From positions 372,001 to 436,000 of the forward strand of contig CP030158.1 of assembly GCA_003285105.1 (NCBI GenBank): a stretch of DNA of 64,000 nucleotides. Reading direction: 5' to 3'. Source of the stretch: Roseithermus sacchariphilus (GTDB lineage: Bacteria; Bacteroidota; Rhodothermia; Rhodothermales; MEBIC09517). Of the stretch, positions 1,140-15,795 are shown in pieces; position 1 is the stretch's first letter, and every line of letters begins with the position of its first letter. The notes under the pieces were generated by a model. The model ran no database searches, had not been told where the DNA came from, and was given only the letters and a program-made list of their open reading frames with translations. The position numbers and the translations under genes were made by a program.

Positions 1140-2216
1140 ATGACCCACGCCGTCATCATGGCCGGGGGCATCGGGAGCCGGTTCTGGCCCAAGAGCCGCC
1201 GCGCCCGCCCCAAGCAGTTTCTCCAGGTCTTCGGAGAGCAGACCCTCATCCAGAACACCGTTGCGCGGCTGCAGGGGCTCATCCCGCCCGAGCGCTGCTT
1301 CGTCGTCACCCACGAGCGCTACGTCGAGCAGACGCGGGATCAGTTGCCGGCGCTGCCGGCGGAGAACATCCTGGCCGAGCCGATCAGCCGCAACACGGCC
1401 CCGTGCATCACCTACGCGGCCGTCAAGCTGCTGGCGCAGGATCCGGACGCCACGATGGTGGTGCTCCCGGCCGATCACGTCATCCCGAACGTGCGGCAGT
1501 TCCACGAAGTGCTGCGCGTCGCCATCGAAAAAGCCCGGGAGCCGGGCACGATCGTCACCATCGGGATCACCCCCACGCACCCGGCCACGGGCTACGGCTA
1601 CATCCAGTTCGAGGGTTCCCTGGACCCCTCCGACCCCGTCCCCCGCGCCTATCCCGTCCGCACGTTCGCCGAGAAGCCGGACCAGGAGACGGCCGAGCGC
1701 TTCATCGACTCGGGGGACTTCCTCTGGAACAGCGGCATGTTCATCTGGCGGGCCGATACCATCCTCGACCAGGTACGCGCCCACCTGCCCGCAGCCTACG
1801 ACGCCTTCCGGTCCGTGCAGGACGCCCTCGGCACCGACCGCGAGCCCGAGGCCGTGGCCGAGGCCTTCCAGAAGAGCCCGGCCACGTCCATCGACTACGG
1901 CGTGATGGAGCATGCCGACCACGTCTACGTCGTGCCCGGCTCCTTCGGGTGGAACGACGTGGGCGACTGGCGGGCCGTCTACGACCTCAGCGACAAGGAC
2001 GACCACGGCAACGTCCTGCGGGGCAACGCCATCGTGCACGATGCCAGCCGCTGCCTCGTCCACGCCGAGGACCGGCTCGTCGCCCTCATCGGCATCCACG
2101 ACGTGATCGTCGTGGATACGGACGATGCGGTGCTGATCTGCAACCGCGACAACACGCAGCAGGTCCGCAACATCGTCAACTACCTCAACAGCCACCAGCT
2201 CACGCAATTCACCTGA
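1140..2216 (+). CDS. manC: mannose-1-phosphate guanylyltransferase
   Basis: Makes GDP-mannose from GTP and mannose-1-phosphate in the cytoplasm, the donor for mannose, fucose and related sugars of surface polysaccharides. The 358-residue protein starts with the nucleotidyltransferase signature AGGIGSRFWPKSR (from residue 8), which includes the RPKQF segment. It also shows FAEKP near residue 176 and WNSGMFIWRAD. It is the short type: the guanylyltransferase and left-handed helix parts are present, but no fused C-terminal phosphomannose isomerase cupin. An in-frame GTG at 1095 would add 15 arginine-rich residues. I prefer ATG 1140 because the family fold starts there. The neighbours give no polysaccharide operon. 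Confidence 0.92.
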   Translation: MTHAVIMAGGIGSRFWPKSRRARPKQFLQVFGEQTLIQNTVARLQGLIPPERCFVVTHERYVEQTRDQLPALPAENILAEPISRNTAPCITYAAVKLLAQDPDATMVVLPADHVIPNVRQFHEVLRVAIEKAREPGTIVTIGITPTHPATGYGYIQFEGSLDPSDPVPRAYPVRTFAEKPDQETAERFIDSGDFLWNSGMFIWRADTILDQVRAHLPAAYDAFRSVQDALGTDREPEAVAEAFQKSPATSIDYGVMEHADHVYVVPGSFGWNDVGDWRAVYDLSDKDDHGNVLRGNAIVHDASRCLVHAEDRLVALIGIHDVIVVDTDDAVLICNRDNTQQVRNIVNYLNSHQLTQFT

Positions 2217-2256
2217 CGCCCCTTCCCGGGGCCGTCCGGCACAACCTCCTCCGGCC

Positions 2257-2619
2257 ATGTCCTACACCTTCTACAAAGTCCTGCACCTCCTCGGCGTGAT
2301 GATGGTGTTCCTGGCGCTCGGCGGCGCGCTGGTGCGCAGCCGGCTCCCGGAGCAGACGGCGTCCTGGAAGAAGCTGATCGCCATCACGCACGGGGTGGGC
2401 CTCCTGCTGCTGCTCGTGGCCGGCTTCGGGCTGCTGGCCCGCCTCGGCGTCTTCTGGCCGATGCCGGCCTGGGCGCTCCTCAAGATCGTCATCTGGCTCC
2501 TCGTCGGCGGGTTGATCGCACTCATCAACCGCAAGCCGGACACCGGCCCCGTCTGGTGGTACCTGACGCTGGTGCTCGGCCTGCTGGCGGCCTACCTCGC
2601 CCTCTACAAGCCCTTCTGA
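2257..2619 (+). CDS. small integral membrane protein, function unknown
   Basis: A 120-residue protein that is almost all hydrophobic, with four predicted membrane segments (about residues 5-22, 42-62, 72-92 and 97-117). Short charged turns such as RSRLPEQTASWKK and NRKPDTGP separate them. It is not recognised at family level; the size and layout resemble small SirB-like or hypothetical membrane proteins of Bacteroidota. It follows manC by 40 bp on the same strand and may share its transcript. No catalytic or binding motif can be seen. Confidence 0.7.
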   Translation: MSYTFYKVLHLLGVMMVFLALGGALVRSRLPEQTASWKKLIAITHGVGLLLLLVAGFGLLARLGVFWPMPAWALLKIVIWLLVGGLIALINRKPDTGPVWWYLTLVLGLLAAYLALYKPF

Positions 2620-2676
2620 TCGAACCCCGCCGGCAAACCGCCCCGGCTCGCCGCCCGACCTCCCTTTTTTCGTGAA

Positions 2677-2698
2677 GTGCCCGTGAATGAGCGGGCAC
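2677..2698. terminator. inverted repeat, possible transcript end hairpin
   Basis: GTGCCCG and CGGGCAC form a perfect 7-bp stem with an 8-base loop, 57 bp past the stop of the small membrane protein gene. No T-tract follows on the + strand (T6 precedes it), so it may be a factor-dependent end or simply a hairpin. Confidence 0.3.
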
Positions 2699-2864
2699 CG
2701 ACGGGCCGCGCCGTATCCGTTCGGCACGGGCTCCGTCCAACCCTTCTCCAGCCGGTCCGTCGATCTCCCTTCCACACCGGACCGCGGCCGGGCGGGCGCC
2801 CCTGCAACGAAGTGGCAAAGGGACCCACACTTTGCGCCATCTTCACCTTCCAGGCGAATCCCGG

Positions 2865-2907
2865 GTCATCTCATGACGTAGGGGTCATCTCGTGACCGAC
2901 CGGTCAC
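2865..2907. promoter_or_regulatory. cluster of palindromes, probable TetR operator
   Basis: Three dyads lie 31-73 bp before the regulator start: GTCAT-CTC-ATGAC (2865-2877), GTCAT-CTC-GTGAC (2884-2896) and GTGACC-GACC-GGTCAC (2892-2907). The first two are near copies with a 19-bp period; the second and third overlap. All share the half-site GTCA/TGAC. TetR-family regulators usually bind dyads beside their own gene, so this is the likely autoregulatory and operon operator. The role is inferred from position and symmetry only. Confidence 0.6.
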
Positions 2908-2937
2908 CTTTTGATTCCGGAACCCGTTCCCTGAGAG

Positions 2938-3684
2938 ATGACCGTCCCTGCCCAGACCGACGAGAAGCCGACCGACGCCACGCTGACCCGCCGGGAGCGC
3001 GAGCGCCTGGCACGCCGCCGGGCCATGCTGGATGCCGCACGGGCCGTCTTCGCCGAGAAAGGCTACACCGAAGCCACGCTCGAGGAGATCGCGCAGCGCG
3101 CCGAGTTTGGCAAAGGCACCCTGTACAACTACTTCGAAGGCGGCAAGGAGGAGATCCTCTTCGCCATCTTCGACGAACTCTACGAGGAGATGGCGGCGCT
3201 GATCACCGCCTCGTTCGCGCCGGAGCAGGTCGAGGGGCAGCCCTTGCGGGCCGTCTTCCAGGGGTTCGTGGCCCGCGCCCTCACCTTCTTCATGCAGCAC
3301 CAGGATCTGTTCCTGATCGCGATGAAGGAGGCGCACCGGCTCACCTTCAGCGAGGACCGGGACAAGATGGCCTATTTCATGGAGCAGCGCGAGCGGCTGG
3401 TCCGCGCGCTCGTGACGCCGCTGAAGGCCGCCATGGACCGGGGAGACGTCCGGCGCCTGCCGCCGCATGCGGTGGCCCATCTGATCCTGGGCAACATCAA
3501 CGGGCTGCAGATGCACATGACCCTGCAGTCCTGCGCCCAGCCGAGCCCGGAGGGCGAGGTGCTTCGCTCCGTGGACCGGGCGGCGGCCTTCCTCACCACG
3601 ATGCTGTTCGACGGGCTGAGCACCGCCCCGGCCACGCCCGCCGCCGACACCGATTCGACGATCCATACCCATGCTACGTCTTAG
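2938..3684 (+). CDS. TetR/AcrR-family transcriptional regulator
   Basis: A 248-residue DNA-binding repressor candidate. Residues about 20-70 hold the TetR helix-turn-helix: RRAMLDAARAVFAEKGY, then ATLEEIAQRAEFGKGTLYNYF. The remainder is the helical ligand and dimer domain, with an Ala/Pro/Thr-rich tail. Its 3' end overlaps the start of the TolC-like gene by 14 bp, and adaptor and RND genes follow, so it is the first gene of the efflux operon. The palindrome cluster just upstream fits self-repression released by an efflux substrate. The ligand is unknown. Confidence 0.9.
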   Translation: MTVPAQTDEKPTDATLTRRERERLARRRAMLDAARAVFAEKGYTEATLEEIAQRAEFGKGTLYNYFEGGKEEILFAIFDELYEEMAALITASFAPEQVEGQPLRAVFQGFVARALTFFMQHQDLFLIAMKEAHRLTFSEDRDKMAYFMEQRERLVRALVTPLKAAMDRGDVRRLPPHAVAHLILGNINGLQMHMTLQSCAQPSPEGEVLRSVDRAAAFLTTMLFDGLSTAPATPAADTDSTIHTHATS

Positions 3685-5317
3685 CCGTTTCAGAAGAAGG
3701 CTCCGGGCCTGGCGCGGCCTGGCCCTGGTCGCCTGCCTGCTGGCCGCCCTGCCGGCCGGCCGCGCCTCCTCGCAGCCCATCGAGCGCATCTCCCCCTCTG
3801 ACGACGCGCTCGTGCTCACGCTCGACGAGGCCCTCCAGATCGCCCTCGTCCAGAACTACGACGTCCGCAACGCGCGCCTGGACGTCCGCAACGCCGACGC
3901 GCAGGTGCGCGAGGCCTGGGGCGGGGTAATGCCGCAGGTGGACGCCTCGGCCAGCTACACCCGCAACCTGAAAAGCCCCAACCCCTTCGCCGGTAGCGAC
4001 GCGGGGGGCCTCTTCGGCGCCCTGGGCTTCGTCGACTGGCTCGCCTACAACGAACAGGCCCGCACGGACGAGGACCCGGAATCGGATCCCCTGCCCTTCA
4101 GCGAGTTCTTCGAGCGGCAGCAGGAAGGCCGACGCGAGGCCGGCATCACCTCTTCGTCCGGCAGCAACCCGTTCTTCGTGCCCAACCAGTTCCAGAGCGG
4201 CATCAGCGTCTCGCAGACGCTTTACAACGGGCAGGCCTTCGCCGCCATCCGCGCCGCCGAACAGTTGAAGGAACTGAACCAGCGCGCGCTGGACCGGCAG
4301 GAGCAGCTCATCGTGGACCAGGTCCGCCGGGCGTTCTACCAGGCCCTGCTGGCGCAGCAGCAGGCCGCCATCACCGCGCAGAGCGTCGAGCGGGCGCGCA
4401 ATACCGTACGGGAGGTGACGTTGCAGGTGCGGCAGGGGGTGGCGCCCAAGTTCCAGCGGCTCTCGGCCGAGGTGCAGCTCGCCAACCTGGAGACGCAACT
4501 CATCCAGGTTACCAACGCGGCCGCGACGGCCCTGGACAACCTGAAGCTGACCCTCGGCATCCCGATCGAGCAGCCGCTCCGGCTGCGGGGCGACCTGGAG
4601 GACGAGGACCGGGGCGCGTACCTGAGCATCTCGGCGGAGGATGCCCTGCGCATCGCCCTGGAGCAGCGGCCCGACCTGAAGCAGGCCGCGCTCAACGTCC
4701 AGCTGCGCGAGGTCGACAAGAACCTGACCCGGGCACAGTTCTTCCCGACGCTCTCGGCCTTTGCCAACTTCAACTACGTCGGCAGCGTCCCGGACAACCG
4801 GAGCTACGTCATCAGCGATCCGGACGACCCGTTCACGTTCAGCCGGGGGGAGCGCGGCTTCTTCAGCCAGTCGTACTGGAACCCGTCGATCAGCGCGGGG
4901 CTGCGGCTCTCGTGGAACCTGTTCAACGGGTTTCAGACCTCCGCGCAGATGCAGCAGCGGCAGATCGCCATCGACCGGGCCGTGACTGCGCAGGAGCAGC
5001 TCCTGCAGTCGGTACAGCTGGAGGTGACACAGGCGCTGCGGGACCTGCAGGCGGCACAGCGGCGCATCCTCAGCCAGGAGCAGAACGTCGACCGGGCGGC
5101 GCTGAACTACGAGTATGCGCTGGCGCGGCTGCGTGAGGGCGTGGCCAGCCCGCTGGAGGAACGCGAAGCCTCGGAGCAGCTCGACCAGGCCCGGCTGAAC
5201 CACCTGCAGGCCGTGCACGACTACCTGGTGGCCCGGAGCGCCTTCGAGCGGGCCGTGGGGCTGCCCCCGTTCCAGTCCGCCGCCTCGCGCTTCCAGCTGA
5301 CCCGCCTGGACGACTGA
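3671..5317 (+). CDS. TolC-family outer membrane efflux protein
   Basis: Outer membrane channel of a tripartite pump. The 548 residues begin with a basic stretch and a hydrophobic signal peptide (to about residue 34). They contain the two internally similar TolC halves: LTLDEALQIALVQNYDVRNARLDV near residue 55 and AEDALRIALEQRPDLKQAALNV near 325. Both are followed by long Gln/Ala-rich coiled-coil helices. The N-terminal half has an acidic loop (DEDPESDP) not usual in E. coli TolC. Translation probably couples to the regulator gene through the 14-bp overlap. The adaptor gene starts 78 bp later. Confidence 0.9.
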   Translation: MLRLSRFRRRLRAWRGLALVACLLAALPAGRASSQPIERISPSDDALVLTLDEALQIALVQNYDVRNARLDVRNADAQVREAWGGVMPQVDASASYTRNLKSPNPFAGSDAGGLFGALGFVDWLAYNEQARTDEDPESDPLPFSEFFERQQEGRREAGITSSSGSNPFFVPNQFQSGISVSQTLYNGQAFAAIRAAEQLKELNQRALDRQEQLIVDQVRRAFYQALLAQQQAAITAQSVERARNTVREVTLQVRQGVAPKFQRLSAEVQLANLETQLIQVTNAAATALDNLKLTLGIPIEQPLRLRGDLEDEDRGAYLSISAEDALRIALEQRPDLKQAALNVQLREVDKNLTRAQFFPTLSAFANFNYVGSVPDNRSYVISDPDDPFTFSRGERGFFSQSYWNPSISAGLRLSWNLFNGFQTSAQMQQRQIAIDRAVTAQEQLLQSVQLEVTQALRDLQAAQRRILSQEQNVDRAALNYEYALARLREGVASPLEEREASEQLDQARLNHLQAVHDYLVARSAFERAVGLPPFQSAASRFQLTRLDD

Positions 5318-12030: not shown

Positions 12031-13503
12031 ATGAAGCGCCTCACCGACTTTCCCGACGCCCATCTGCGCCTCTTCGAGCGGCCACCCGTGCCGCCACCGG
12101 AGGCCATCCGGGACGTCTACCTGATCGGCATCTGTGGCACGGGGATGGGCTCGCTGGCCGGGCTGTTCCAGCAGGCGGGCTACCGCGTGCGCGGGGCCGA
12201 CCAGGCCGCCTATCCGCCGATGAGCACCCGCCTGGCCGCCATGGGCGTCACCGTCCTCGAAGGCTACGACCCGGCCCACCTCGACCCCGCGCCCGACCTC
12301 GTCGTCGTCGGCAATGCCTGCACGCCGACGCACCCGGAAGCCGCCTACGCCCGCGACCACGGCCTCGCCCAGCAGTCGTTCCCCGAGGCGCTGGCCCACT
12401 TCTTCATCCGCGACCGCCGCTCCCTCGTCGTGGCCGGCACCCACGGCAAGACGACGACCACCGGCATGCTGGTGCACGTGCTGCGCGAGGCCGGCCTCGA
12501 CCCCGGCTTCCTCGTCGGCGGCGTGATGACGGGGCTGGAGACCAGCTACGCCGTCGGCACCGGCCCGCACTTCGTGGTGGAGGGCGACGAGTACGACAGC
12601 GCCTACTTCGACAAGCGGCCCAAGTTCATGCACTACCGGCCCACGAGCGCCATCGTCACCTCAATGGAGTTCGACCACGCCGACATCTACGCCGACTGGG
12701 CCGACTACCGCACGGCGTTCGAGGCCTTTGCCGGGACGGTGCCTCCCGAGGGGCTGCTCGTCCTCTGCGCCGACGACCCGGCCGTGCGCGCCCTCGCCGG
12801 CCACACATCCGCCCGCGTGCAGACCTATGGCCTGGAGCGCGGCGACGTGACGGCCCGCCACATCCGGCGGGGCGAAGGCGGCCAGCGGTTCGAACTCGTC
12901 GCCCACGGAGCCATCCAGGGCGAGGTGTTCCTGCCCATGAGCGGGCGGCACAACCTGCTCAACGCCCTCGCCGTCTGCACCGTCGCGCTCGACGAGGGGC
13001 TGACGGCCGAGCAGATCGCCTACGGCCTGGGCACGTGGCAGGGCATGAAGCGCCGCCAGGAGGTGCGGGGCGAGGCGGCCGGCGTGCTCGTGCTGGACGA
13101 CTTCGCGCACCACCCGACCGCCGTGCGGGCCACCCTCCAGGCCGTACGCGAGCGCTGGCCGGAGCGGCGGCTCGTGGCTGTCTTCGAACCCCGCAGCAAC
13201 TCCAGCCGCCGCAAGGTCTTCGAAGACGCCTACGCCGACGCCTTCGAGCAGGCCGACCTCGTCTTTCTCAGCACCCCGCCCTTCCGCCACAACGACCGCC
13301 GCGAGGACTTCCTCGACCCCGACGCCGTCACCGCCCGCCTCGAAGCCCGCGGCATCCCGGCCCGCGCCCTCCCCGACGCCGACGCCCTCCTGCCGCCGCT
13401 GCTGGACTGCCTCCGCCCCGGCGACACCGTGCTCATCATGAGCAACGGCGGCTTCGGCGGCCTCCACGACCGGCTGCTGGATCGACTGCGCGAGCGGGGG
13501 TGA
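12031..13503 (+). CDS. mpl: UDP-N-acetylmuramate:L-alanyl-gamma-D-glutamyl-meso-DAP ligase (Mpl)
   Basis: Attaches the recycled tripeptide L-Ala-gamma-D-Glu-meso-DAP to UDP-MurNAc, saving peptidoglycan fragments. The 490-residue protein shows the Mur-ligase layout. An N-terminal Rossmann part has IGICGTGMGSLAGLF near residue 32. The ATP loop AGTHGKTTTTG is near 135, with VVEGDEYDSAYFDKRPKF near 182. The C-terminal domain has DDFAHHPTAV and FEPRSNSSRR. These features are typical of Mpl rather than MurC. The last 48 codons and stop recur 933 bp downstream, so this 3' end has been rebuilt or duplicated. The reading frame is intact. Confidence 0.93.
   Translation: MKRLTDFPDAHLRLFERPPVPPPEAIRDVYLIGICGTGMGSLAGLFQQAGYRVRGADQAAYPPMSTRLAAMGVTVLEGYDPAHLDPAPDLVVVGNACTPTHPEAAYARDHGLAQQSFPEALAHFFIRDRRSLVVAGTHGKTTTTGMLVHVLREAGLDPGFLVGGVMTGLETSYAVGTGPHFVVEGDEYDSAYFDKRPKFMHYRPTSAIVTSMEFDHADIYADWADYRTAFEAFAGTVPPEGLLVLCADDPAVRALAGHTSARVQTYGLERGDVTARHIRRGEGGQRFELVAHGAIQGEVFLPMSGRHNLLNALAVCTVALDEGLTAEQIAYGLGTWQGMKRRQEVRGEAAGVLVLDDFAHHPTAVRATLQAVRERWPERRLVAVFEPRSNSSRRKVFEDAYADAFEQADLVFLSTPPFRHNDRREDFLDPDAVTARLEARGIPARALPDADALLPPLLDCLRPGDTVLIMSNGGFGGLHDRLLDRLRERG
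13357..13503 (+). repeat. 147-bp direct repeat, copy 1 (inside mpl 3' end)
   Basis: The last 147 bp of mpl match 14290-14436 with three differences that I can count by eye (about 98% identity). The copies are in the same orientation and lie 933 bp apart. This copy ends exactly at the mpl stop codon. The 786 bp between the copies hold the toxin/antitoxin pair. Confidence 0.93.
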
Positions 13504-13556
13504 ATGCCGGAGCGCAGCGCCGGAAGATGAGGCACCCGACGGTTTCCTTCTCGGGA

Positions 13557-13970
13557 TCAGCCCGGCACGATCAAGGGAATCGCTTCGTGCCGGCGGATAC
13601 GATAGACGCTAAAGTCCTGTACATCCGTCGTGAAGACAGGCAGCCCCAGTTCCTCAGCCAGTCGAACGACGCAGGCGTCCGCAAAATCCATGGGCTGATC
13701 GGAAAACTGCTCAAGCAAACGCATGATTGCGCCGGCCTGCTCATCGAACCGCAGCGGGGTCGTCACTCGCCCCAGAGCGATCCATTGCCGCAGAGCTTTG
13801 CGAGCACGCGGCACCCGTTTCAACAGATGATAGGCTTCGGTCAGCACAGCCTCACACGTCACCAGCGGCGTCGCCAGGTCACGGGTCTGCTCCAGAGCCC
13901 AGGCGTGGTGCCCGTCGCGGGGATTGAAGAACGCAACGAGCGGCCCGGTATCCAGGATAACCTGCCTCAT
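13557..13970 (-). CDS. PIN-domain ribonuclease toxin (VapC-like)
   Basis: 137 residues of PIN fold. LDTGPLVAFFNPRD near the start supplies the first Asp (D7). A middle Glu lies in CEAVLTEAYHLL, and the C-terminal acidic pair in MDFADACVVRLAEELGLPVFTTDVQDF. These match the metal-binding acidic residues of VapC-type RNases, which cut tRNA or rRNA when free. Its start overlaps the stop of the upstream small gene by 4 bp (ATGA), the usual arrangement for a toxin behind its antitoxin. The pair runs against mpl and lies between the two mpl tail repeats. Confidence 0.85.
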   Translation of the reverse strand: MRQVILDTGPLVAFFNPRDGHHAWALEQTRDLATPLVTCEAVLTEAYHLLKRVPRARKALRQWIALGRVTTPLRFDEQAGAIMRLLEQFSDQPMDFADACVVRLAEELGLPVFTTDVQDFSVYRIRRHEAIPLIVPG

Positions 13971-14233
13971 GTGCCGAGATCATCGAGATATGAGCGATTG
14001 GTCGATAGGTCGGCAGGCCCTTCCCCGAGGGTGGACAGCAGATCGTCCAGCCCGTGAAACGGCGTCCCCGGCGGGAACGCGGAGGCATCCGCCTCGGCCG
14101 CAAGGGCCTGCTCCACCGCACGGATAACGGCTTCTTCTGGCGAGACCTGATCGCGGGCGGCCAGTCGTTCAATGGCCCGACGCTGCTCGGGCGTCAGGCG
14201 AAGTCGGAAGTCGGAAAGGTCGGGAGCAGACAT
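13967..14233 (-). CDS. probable antitoxin of the PIN toxin (RHH-like)
   Basis: 88 residues from ATG 14233. The N-terminal half (FRLRLTPEQRRAIERLAARDQVSPEEAVIRAVEQAL) has the pattern of a short ribbon-helix-helix DNA-binding domain. The Pro/Gly/Asp-rich C-terminal half would bind the toxin. A longer frame back to 14329 adds 32 basic residues and runs into the repeat copy; I reject it. Overlap with the toxin gene (ATGA) implies coupled translation. An antitoxin of this type normally also represses its own promoter. The exact family is not identified. Confidence 0.7.
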   Translation of the reverse strand: MSAPDLSDFRLRLTPEQRRAIERLAARDQVSPEEAVIRAVEQALAAEADASAFPPGTPFHGLDDLLSTLGEGPADLSTNRSYLDDLGT

Positions 14234-14289
14234 AGACGAGCTCTTTTTTCGTTTTCCGTGAACGACCTGACCCCGCTTGAAGTTGCCGT

Positions 14290-14436
14290 CCGGCCCGCGC
14301 CCTCCCCGACGCCGACGCCCTCCTGCCACCGCTGCTGGACCGCCTCCGCCCCGGCGACACCGTGCTCATCATGAGCAACGGCGGCTTCGGCGGCCTCCAC
14401 GACCGGCTGCTGGATCGGCTGCGCGAGCGGGGGTGA
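14290..14436 (+). pseudogene. 147-bp direct repeat, copy 2: orphan mpl 3' end
   Basis: A second copy of the last 48 codons plus stop of mpl, three substitutions away from 13357-13503. It has no start or upstream mpl sequence, so it is a gene fragment. It sits 56 bp beyond the antitoxin start codon, so the antitoxin promoter must lie in or next to it. Either this is the original mpl end, displaced by an insertion that brought a new one, or a duplicate made during insertion. Confidence 0.88.
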
Positions 14437-14473
14437 ACCCGACCTCCCCCTGTCCCGTGTCCACCCTGTTTGC

Positions 14474-14481: not shown

Positions 14482-14608
14482 AGCGAAAGACAGACCCGGC
14501 ATGAAGCGGCTTCGCGGCCGGCCTCTGCCTCCTTCGCCGACGGCGTCCGGTCCCGGGTTCCCCCCGGCCGTTCGCTCTTCGGGCCTCCCCGACCAGCCCT
14601 CCCTGACC

Positions 14609-14881
14609 ATGCGCCCTCACAACGCCCTCGACCTGAAGATCCGCACCTTCCTCCAGCAGGCCGGCGTCCCGGTCGACCCCGCCACGTCGTCGAGCATCCA
14701 GCTCATCCGCTATTTCGAGCAGGAGTTCGGCTGCGAGATCCTGGGCCTCCTGGAACAGGAGTACTGGGAGGAACAGGTGGACCTGGACCTCGAACAGGGC
14801 CGCTTCGGGGCCATCCGGGAGCGCCTCGATGAGGACGACCGGCAGGAGTTCGACGACCTGCTGCGCCGCATCCTGGACTGA
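14609..14881 (+). CDS. small acidic protein, function unknown
   Basis: 90 residues, rich in Glu, Asp, Leu and Gln, probably all alpha-helical (LEQEYWEEQVDLDLEQGRF, IRERLDEDDRQEF). It has no signal peptide or membrane segment and no motif that I recognise. An in-frame ATG at 14501 would add 36 low-complexity residues; ATG 14609 is preferred because the regular helical pattern begins there. It stands between the mpl repeat and the BtuF-like gene on the same strand. Confidence 0.65.
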   Translation: MRPHNALDLKIRTFLQQAGVPVDPATSSSIQLIRYFEQEFGCEILGLLEQEYWEEQVDLDLEQGRFGAIRERLDEDDRQEFDDLLRRILD

Positions 14882-14985: not shown

Positions 14986-15795
14986 ATGACGTTCCCCCTC
15001 CACCTGATCGATGCCACCGGCCGCAGCGTCGTCCTGCCCGCGCCTCCGCAGCGCATCGTGTCGCTGGTTCCGAGCCAGACGGAGTTGCTCGCCGATCTGG
15101 GGCTCGACGCACGGGTCGTCGGCCTGACCCGCTTCTGCATCCACCCCTCCGGCTGGAAGGCCCGCAAGGCCATCGTCGGGGGCACGAAGCAGGTCAACCT
15201 CGACCGCATCCGCGCGCTGCGGCCGGACCTGATCCTCGCCAACCGGGAGGAGAACACCCGGGCCATGGTCGAGGCGCTGGGCGAGATCGCGCCGGTCTAC
15301 GTCACCGACGTTCGCACGCTGGACGATGCGCTCGCCATGATCCGCACGGTGGGCCGGCTCACCGGACGGACGCGCGCGGCGGAGGCGCTGGCCGAGGACA
15401 TCCACACCCGCTTCGCCGGGCTCCCCTCCGCCGCTCCGCTTCGCACGGCGTACCTGATCTGGCACGACCCGCTGATGACGGTGGGGCACGACACGTTCAT
15501 CCACGACCTGCTGGCCCGGGGCGGCTTCGCCAACGTCTTCGGCGAACGTACCCGCTACCCGGCCCTCACGCGGGCCGACCTCGCCGCCGCCCGCCCGGCC
15601 GTCGTGCTGTTGCCCGACGAGCCCTACCCGTTCGATGAAGCCGACCGCCGCGCCCTGGCCGCCGCCCTGCCGGACGCCACCGTGCGCCTCGTCGAGGGCG
15701 CGCCGTTTTCCTGGTACGGCTCCCGCCTGCGCCATACCCCCGCCTACCTGAGCGCCCTCCGCGCCTCCCTGCCGCTCGCGGCCCGGGATGCGTAG
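14986..15795 (+). CDS. BtuF-like periplasmic-binding-fold protein (helical backbone metal receptor)
   Basis: 269 residues with the BtuF/FhuD class III binding-protein fold. A strand-rich N-terminal lobe has QRIVSLVPSQTELLADLGLDARVVGLTRFC, then DLILANREEN, a linking helix, and a second lobe (YLIWHDPLMTVGHDTFIHDLLARGGFANV). The family captures cobalamin, haem or metal chelates for ABC importers. No signal peptide or lipobox can be seen at this start, and no permease or ATPase gene lies beside it. It may therefore act in the cytoplasm or use a start that I cannot see. Ligand unproven. Confidence 0.8.
   Translation: MTFPLHLIDATGRSVVLPAPPQRIVSLVPSQTELLADLGLDARVVGLTRFCIHPSGWKARKAIVGGTKQVNLDRIRALRPDLILANREENTRAMVEALGEIAPVYVTDVRTLDDALAMIRTVGRLTGRTRAAEALAEDIHTRFAGLPSAAPLRTAYLIWHDPLMTVGHDTFIHDLLARGGFANVFGERTRYPALTRADLAAARPAVVLLPDEPYPFDEADRRALAAALPDATVRLVEGAPFSWYGSRLRHTPAYLSALRASLPLAARDA

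Follow-up and report, generated by a model that had tools for sequence, protein, structure and literature searches.

A predicted vapBC operon between direct repeats of the mpl 3′ end, and similar structures at other loci in Rhodothermia

The window analysed here, a 64-kb stretch of DNA, carries an intact mpl gene (12031..13503, + strand), which serves cell-wall recycling and whose product, UDP-N-acetylmuramate:L-alanyl-gamma-D-glutamyl-meso-diaminopimelate ligase, matches TIGR01081 with 398 bits (cut-off 388.7). The 3′ end of this gene is present twice in the same orientation. Specifically, repeat comparison reveals a 148-bp direct repeat, composed of the final 147 bp of mpl plus one further base, with a spacing of 933 bp. 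The first copy (13357..13504, + strand) supplies the end of mpl, which stays whole, and the second (14290..14437, + strand) is an orphan tail beside the original downstream sequence. The copies agree at 145 of 148 positions, which bears out a first-pass annotation that had reported the duplication with three differences. These mismatches (13395 G/A, 13408 T/C and 13485 A/G) are few and fall at variable positions, and they give no indication of which copy is the older. Other long local direct repeats are lacking from the window, and searching the complete genome, a single contig of 4,807,988 bp, gave no third copy. A simple assembly duplication is unlikely, because the genome is one 4.81-Mb contig and the two tail copies differ.

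Between the copies lies a 785-bp segment (13505..14289, no strand assigned) with a GC content of 0.63, compared with 0.73 for mpl, and its gene content is limited to a predicted toxin/antitoxin pair. The annotation had described a two-gene block of 786 bp with toxin and antitoxin on the other strand; the two genes are there, the insert is one base shorter, and the strand statement holds relative to mpl, with both genes on the minus strand. The gene at 13557..13970 encodes a predicted VapC-type PIN-domain toxin of 137 aa. Its match to PF01850 (43.4 bits) is above the cut-off, and the D, E, ADA and TD positions, which include the conserved acidic residues, are retained in an alignment of homologues. 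The match to VapC26 is weak (E 0.003). Upstream of the PIN gene and overlapping it by 4 bp is an 88-aa ORF (13967..14233), and the same gene order is kept in a related cassette in another genome (L184, see below). No Pfam or NCBIfam model matched this partner, and PADLOC returned nothing for either cassette protein. Assignment of the 88-aa ORF as a putative VapB-type antitoxin is based on gene order, overlap and conservation. The pair resembles VapBC modules, whose toxins are PIN-domain RNases, in having a PIN domain with conserved acidic residues and a small overlapping partner gene upstream, but differs in that its partner lacks a Pfam or NCBIfam match. We describe the insert as a VapBC-type pair of predicted function, comprising a PIN toxin and a putative antitoxin partner.

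The surroundings are those of a housekeeping region, with genes for an RND transporter, a CNNM/CBS protein, a peptidase M19 and a cellulase. Outside the insertion, a small DUF440-like ORF (14501..14881, + strand; its DUF440 match is below the family cut-off) lies between the second tail and a gene for a BtuF-like periplasmic binding protein (14986..15795, + strand; PF01497). The annotation had noted a cassette with no integrase; none was found around the mpl site, and neither was a tRNA, a transposase or another transposon gene. With two genes only in the insert and housekeeping neighbours, the unit has no known mobile-element carrier.

That the block is an insertion, as had been proposed, is upheld by the mpl loci of relatives. 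Eight genomes of Rhodothermales (G002, G008, G010, G016, G021, G022, G031 and G044) have the BtuF-like gene directly after mpl, with one tail and no cassette. A repeated mpl tail was absent from every other mpl locus examined, so no cassette-free relative carrying both tails came to light. The empty site is defined by synteny rather than base by base, because the closest relatives compared share just the order. Since these relatives have a single tail without the cassette, it was most likely acquired in this lineage. The tails also speak to their own origin. They are 98% identical to each other. Over the longer alignments, neither exceeds about 82% identity with the tails of relatives, from which both are equally distant. 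The annotation had suggested that one tail might be foreign. A tail supplied by an incoming element should stand apart and neither copy does, and the identities thus indicate that the host's own mpl tail was duplicated on insertion.

The locus has the structural marks of insertion with long target duplication, in which host sequence is present once at the empty site and twice around the insert and the duplication is long and variable in length. The original description of this type concerns restriction-modification cargo, whereas the cargo here is a PIN toxin and its partner. The mpl case is thus a variant by cargo, assigned to the class on structure alone, and we consider it probable that the structure arose by insertion of a vapBC pair with a long duplication of the host target sequence.

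Related cassettes elsewhere show the same arrangement. The cassette at L184 in G010 is 73% identical in DNA to that of the window over 617 bp, a similarity that spans only the two genes. It occupies a different site and is bracketed by its own, different 56-bp repeat; the orthologue of its flanking gene in the genome studied here (G000) sits in another context. The window and G010 carry members of one cassette family at separate sites, and their repeats, the putative target duplications, are unrelated to each other. A 675-bp vapBC insert in G002 (L194) is flanked by 39-bp repeats, and its empty site in the sister genome G016 is exact to the base, a single copy lying between the two flanks. In G010, at the 3′ end of ispG (L235; G010:C1, near 648.6 kb), a 205-bp ispG tail is present in three identical copies around two tandem vapBC units, the second of which has a broken toxin gene. 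Three tails and two units are what unequal crossing-over between repeats would give, and the tandem is likely to reflect amplification by recombination between target duplications. This agrees with the expectation of the annotation that such repeats are prone to recombine. Finally, one insertion is common to a Salinibacter-like genus (L197, L227, L229 and L232) and has an empty site in G044; its repeats measure 149 bp in G051 and 48 bp in G002. Short repeats can accordingly be eroded long ones.

To measure how often PIN genes are bracketed in this way, the PIN family was sought in the window's own genome (eight genes) and in relatives. A locus was scored as bracketed when direct repeats with a score of at least 20 and a spacing of 500-1500 lay outside the PIN match; genomes were sampled as regions plus random stretches, and PIN positions at some loci were set from match coordinates. 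By this measure, 17 of 83 non-redundant PIN loci in Rhodothermia are bracketed, and these 17 include four of the eight PIN genes in the genome itself. Among control loci, the corresponding figures are 1/26 for acetyltransferase genes, 0/21 for ParE, 0% for mpl and about 0-3% for positions drawn at random from these genomes. Of 63 PIN loci from other phyla, mostly Acidobacteria, one was bracketed (Fisher p = 0.0005 compared with Rhodothermia), and that single case, L339, looks like a dispersed intergenic repeat. Three of the 17 are weak: L139 looks like a within-gene repeat, L214 is palindromic and L147 is short. When these three are dropped, orthologous insertions are merged and the tandem case L235 is added, about 11 independent insertions are counted in Rhodothermia. 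The recurrence around about a fifth of Rhodothermia PIN loci points to a repeated way for such genes to move. Dispersed repeats were also considered as a cause of the bracketing and were rejected for the main cases; the repeats at related loci (24-205 bp) each match their own locus only. The inserts at these loci are operon-sized each time (675-1128 bp), and no common end motif or terminal inverted repeat was found among them, the best 16-mer arm matches reaching 7-11 of 16.

Bracketed segments with other contents were also seen. At L156 (G000:C1:1004038-1024037, positions 2192-2980), an 81-bp stretch from the 5′ end of a gene, aldo-keto-reductase-like as judged by eye, is duplicated on either side of one non-toxin ORF. 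At L120 (G000:C1:163891-167265, positions 2199-3255), the tail of a gene, similar to a type IX secretion sorting signal, occurs in duplicate around a lipoprotein gene that adjoins another vapBC pair, in blocks of about 107 and 67 bp with spacings of 870 and 900. At L189 (G006:C136, positions 3427-4338), a 139-bp duplication of a host gene tail surrounds two genes, one nucleotidyltransferase-like and the other a small ORF, which may form another type of toxin-antitoxin pair; a PIN gene lies close by. Because the footprint occurs at no fewer than two non-toxin genes (L156 and the lipoprotein gene of L120), the process is not strictly specific for toxin-antitoxin genes.

Several other origins for the mpl structure were weighed. 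The annotation had raised the possibility of an island relic. In such a scheme a tyrosine recombinase would have used the mpl 3′ end for attachment of an integrative island, a replacement tail would have been supplied and the integrase later lost. The position at a gene 3′ end and the tail copy in the same orientation do resemble attL and attR. However, neither tail copy is foreign, there is no integrase or tRNA near the mpl site, related cassettes at other sites use unrelated repeats, and the inserts are only operon-sized. Furthermore, the relic of one island does not accord with the presence of the same structure at many loci whose vapBC pairs are unrelated, and we consider this origin very improbable. 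That the repeats here are host coding sequence and specific to each locus tends to argue against an integron cassette. Classical transposition, with an unseen transposase supplied in trans, is also very improbable. A clean target duplication and an exact empty site, as in L194 compared with G016, would look much the same after transposition, but the length of the duplication varies among loci and the inserts share neither end sequence nor terminal inverted repeats; known transposases generally make target duplications that are short and fixed in length.

Homologous recombination of the Campbell type, in which a circle or fragment carrying an mpl tail joined to the cassette recombined into the resident mpl tail, would yield exactly the order repeat, cassette, repeat, and homologous recombination may later spread such a structure among strains. 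Yet this route requires a prior junction of cassette and tail, which leaves the first event unexplained, and the two copies show no trace of a diverged donor; as the origin of the mpl structure it is very improbable. Capture of the cassette at a staggered break by Ku/LigD non-homologous end joining, with fill-in, would produce what is observed, namely long duplications that vary in length and lack end motifs. Ku is present in only 8 of 60 relatives, however, and was not detected in G000, G002, G010, G016, G020 or G031, all of which have bracketed cassettes. Its absence from these six genomes makes classical Ku end joining unlikely, to the point that we give this route almost no weight.

For the preferred reading, insertion of a vapBC pair with a long duplication of host sequence, two courses of events can be envisaged. 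The insert may have been joined between two offset single-strand breaks whose gaps were then filled. Alternatively, a replication fork may have picked up the cassette by copying it at another location and then restarted about 148 bp upstream. Either way, the stretch between the two points would be copied on both sides of the insert, and the cassette itself could stem from copy-paste or from a free fragment that was captured. The events retained would be those that leave the host gene intact, through duplication of a tail or of intergenic sequence, and that preserve a working toxin-antitoxin pair. The preponderance of gene tails and intergenic sites would follow from selection, because duplication of a tail leaves the upstream gene whole, and the bias to PIN pairs could result from frequent transfer and retention through addiction. 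Later homologous recombination between the copies could remove the cassette or raise its copy number, with the repeats eroding over time. We also put forward, as a possible though doubtful extension, that Rhodothermia have a pathway independent of sequence and of Ku by which naked vapBC operons are inserted time and again, each with a long duplication of host DNA. Such a pathway would be either encoded by the host or powered by the addiction modules.

Insertion with long target duplication is already known from restriction-modification genes of Helicobacter pylori (Nobusato et al. 2000, Gene 259:99-108, as related in PMC1643837, PMC3874152 and PMC3031569). As described in those accounts, the Helicobacter insertions share with the present ones an addiction-type unit, no mobile-element carrier, an empty site in a related genome, a long (about 100 bp) and variable duplication of host sequence, and the potential for tandem amplification. 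They differ in that the cargo here is type II toxin-antitoxin, in another phylum, and that the vapBC pairs involved are many, unrelated and spread over an order. A second parallel is found in Microcystis aeruginosa PCC 7806, where a ParE/ParD-like pair lies between two identical 152-bp direct repeats (PMC7935541). This is likewise a single toxin-antitoxin operon between direct repeats of about 150 bp next to a gene end, but the toxin is of the RelE/ParE type, and the repeat lies 14 bp past the stop codon, with inverted repeats inside it; the description of the pair in PMC7935541 gives neither an empty site nor a mechanism. Toxin-antitoxin modules have been called exceptionally mobile, and insertions of MNT-HEPN modules are visible between closely related genomes (PMC2701414). 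These also are recent insertions of two-gene modules relative to a syntenic empty locus; they differ in that the relevant part of PMC2701414 mentions no flanking duplication. In the open-access literature we found no paper that describes the pattern as general for toxin-antitoxin loci. What is new here is the toxin-antitoxin cargo and the frequency in one clade, the type of insertion being known.

A common way of inserting links toxin-antitoxin with restriction-modification modules. For annotation, an orphan gene tail adjoining a toxin-antitoxin pair can be read as an insertion scar. A clade with scars at about a fifth of its vapBC loci, together with exact empty sites, offers events that can be dated, and the 149-bp and 48-bp repeats of the shared Salinibacter-like insertion provide a clock for repeat erosion. 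Datable insertions allow ends, targets and donors to be read, which bears on how chromosomal operons move when they lack a transposase. If a pathway of the kind proposed above exists in Rhodothermia, vapBC modules would be mobile units in their own right, with no need of a transposase.
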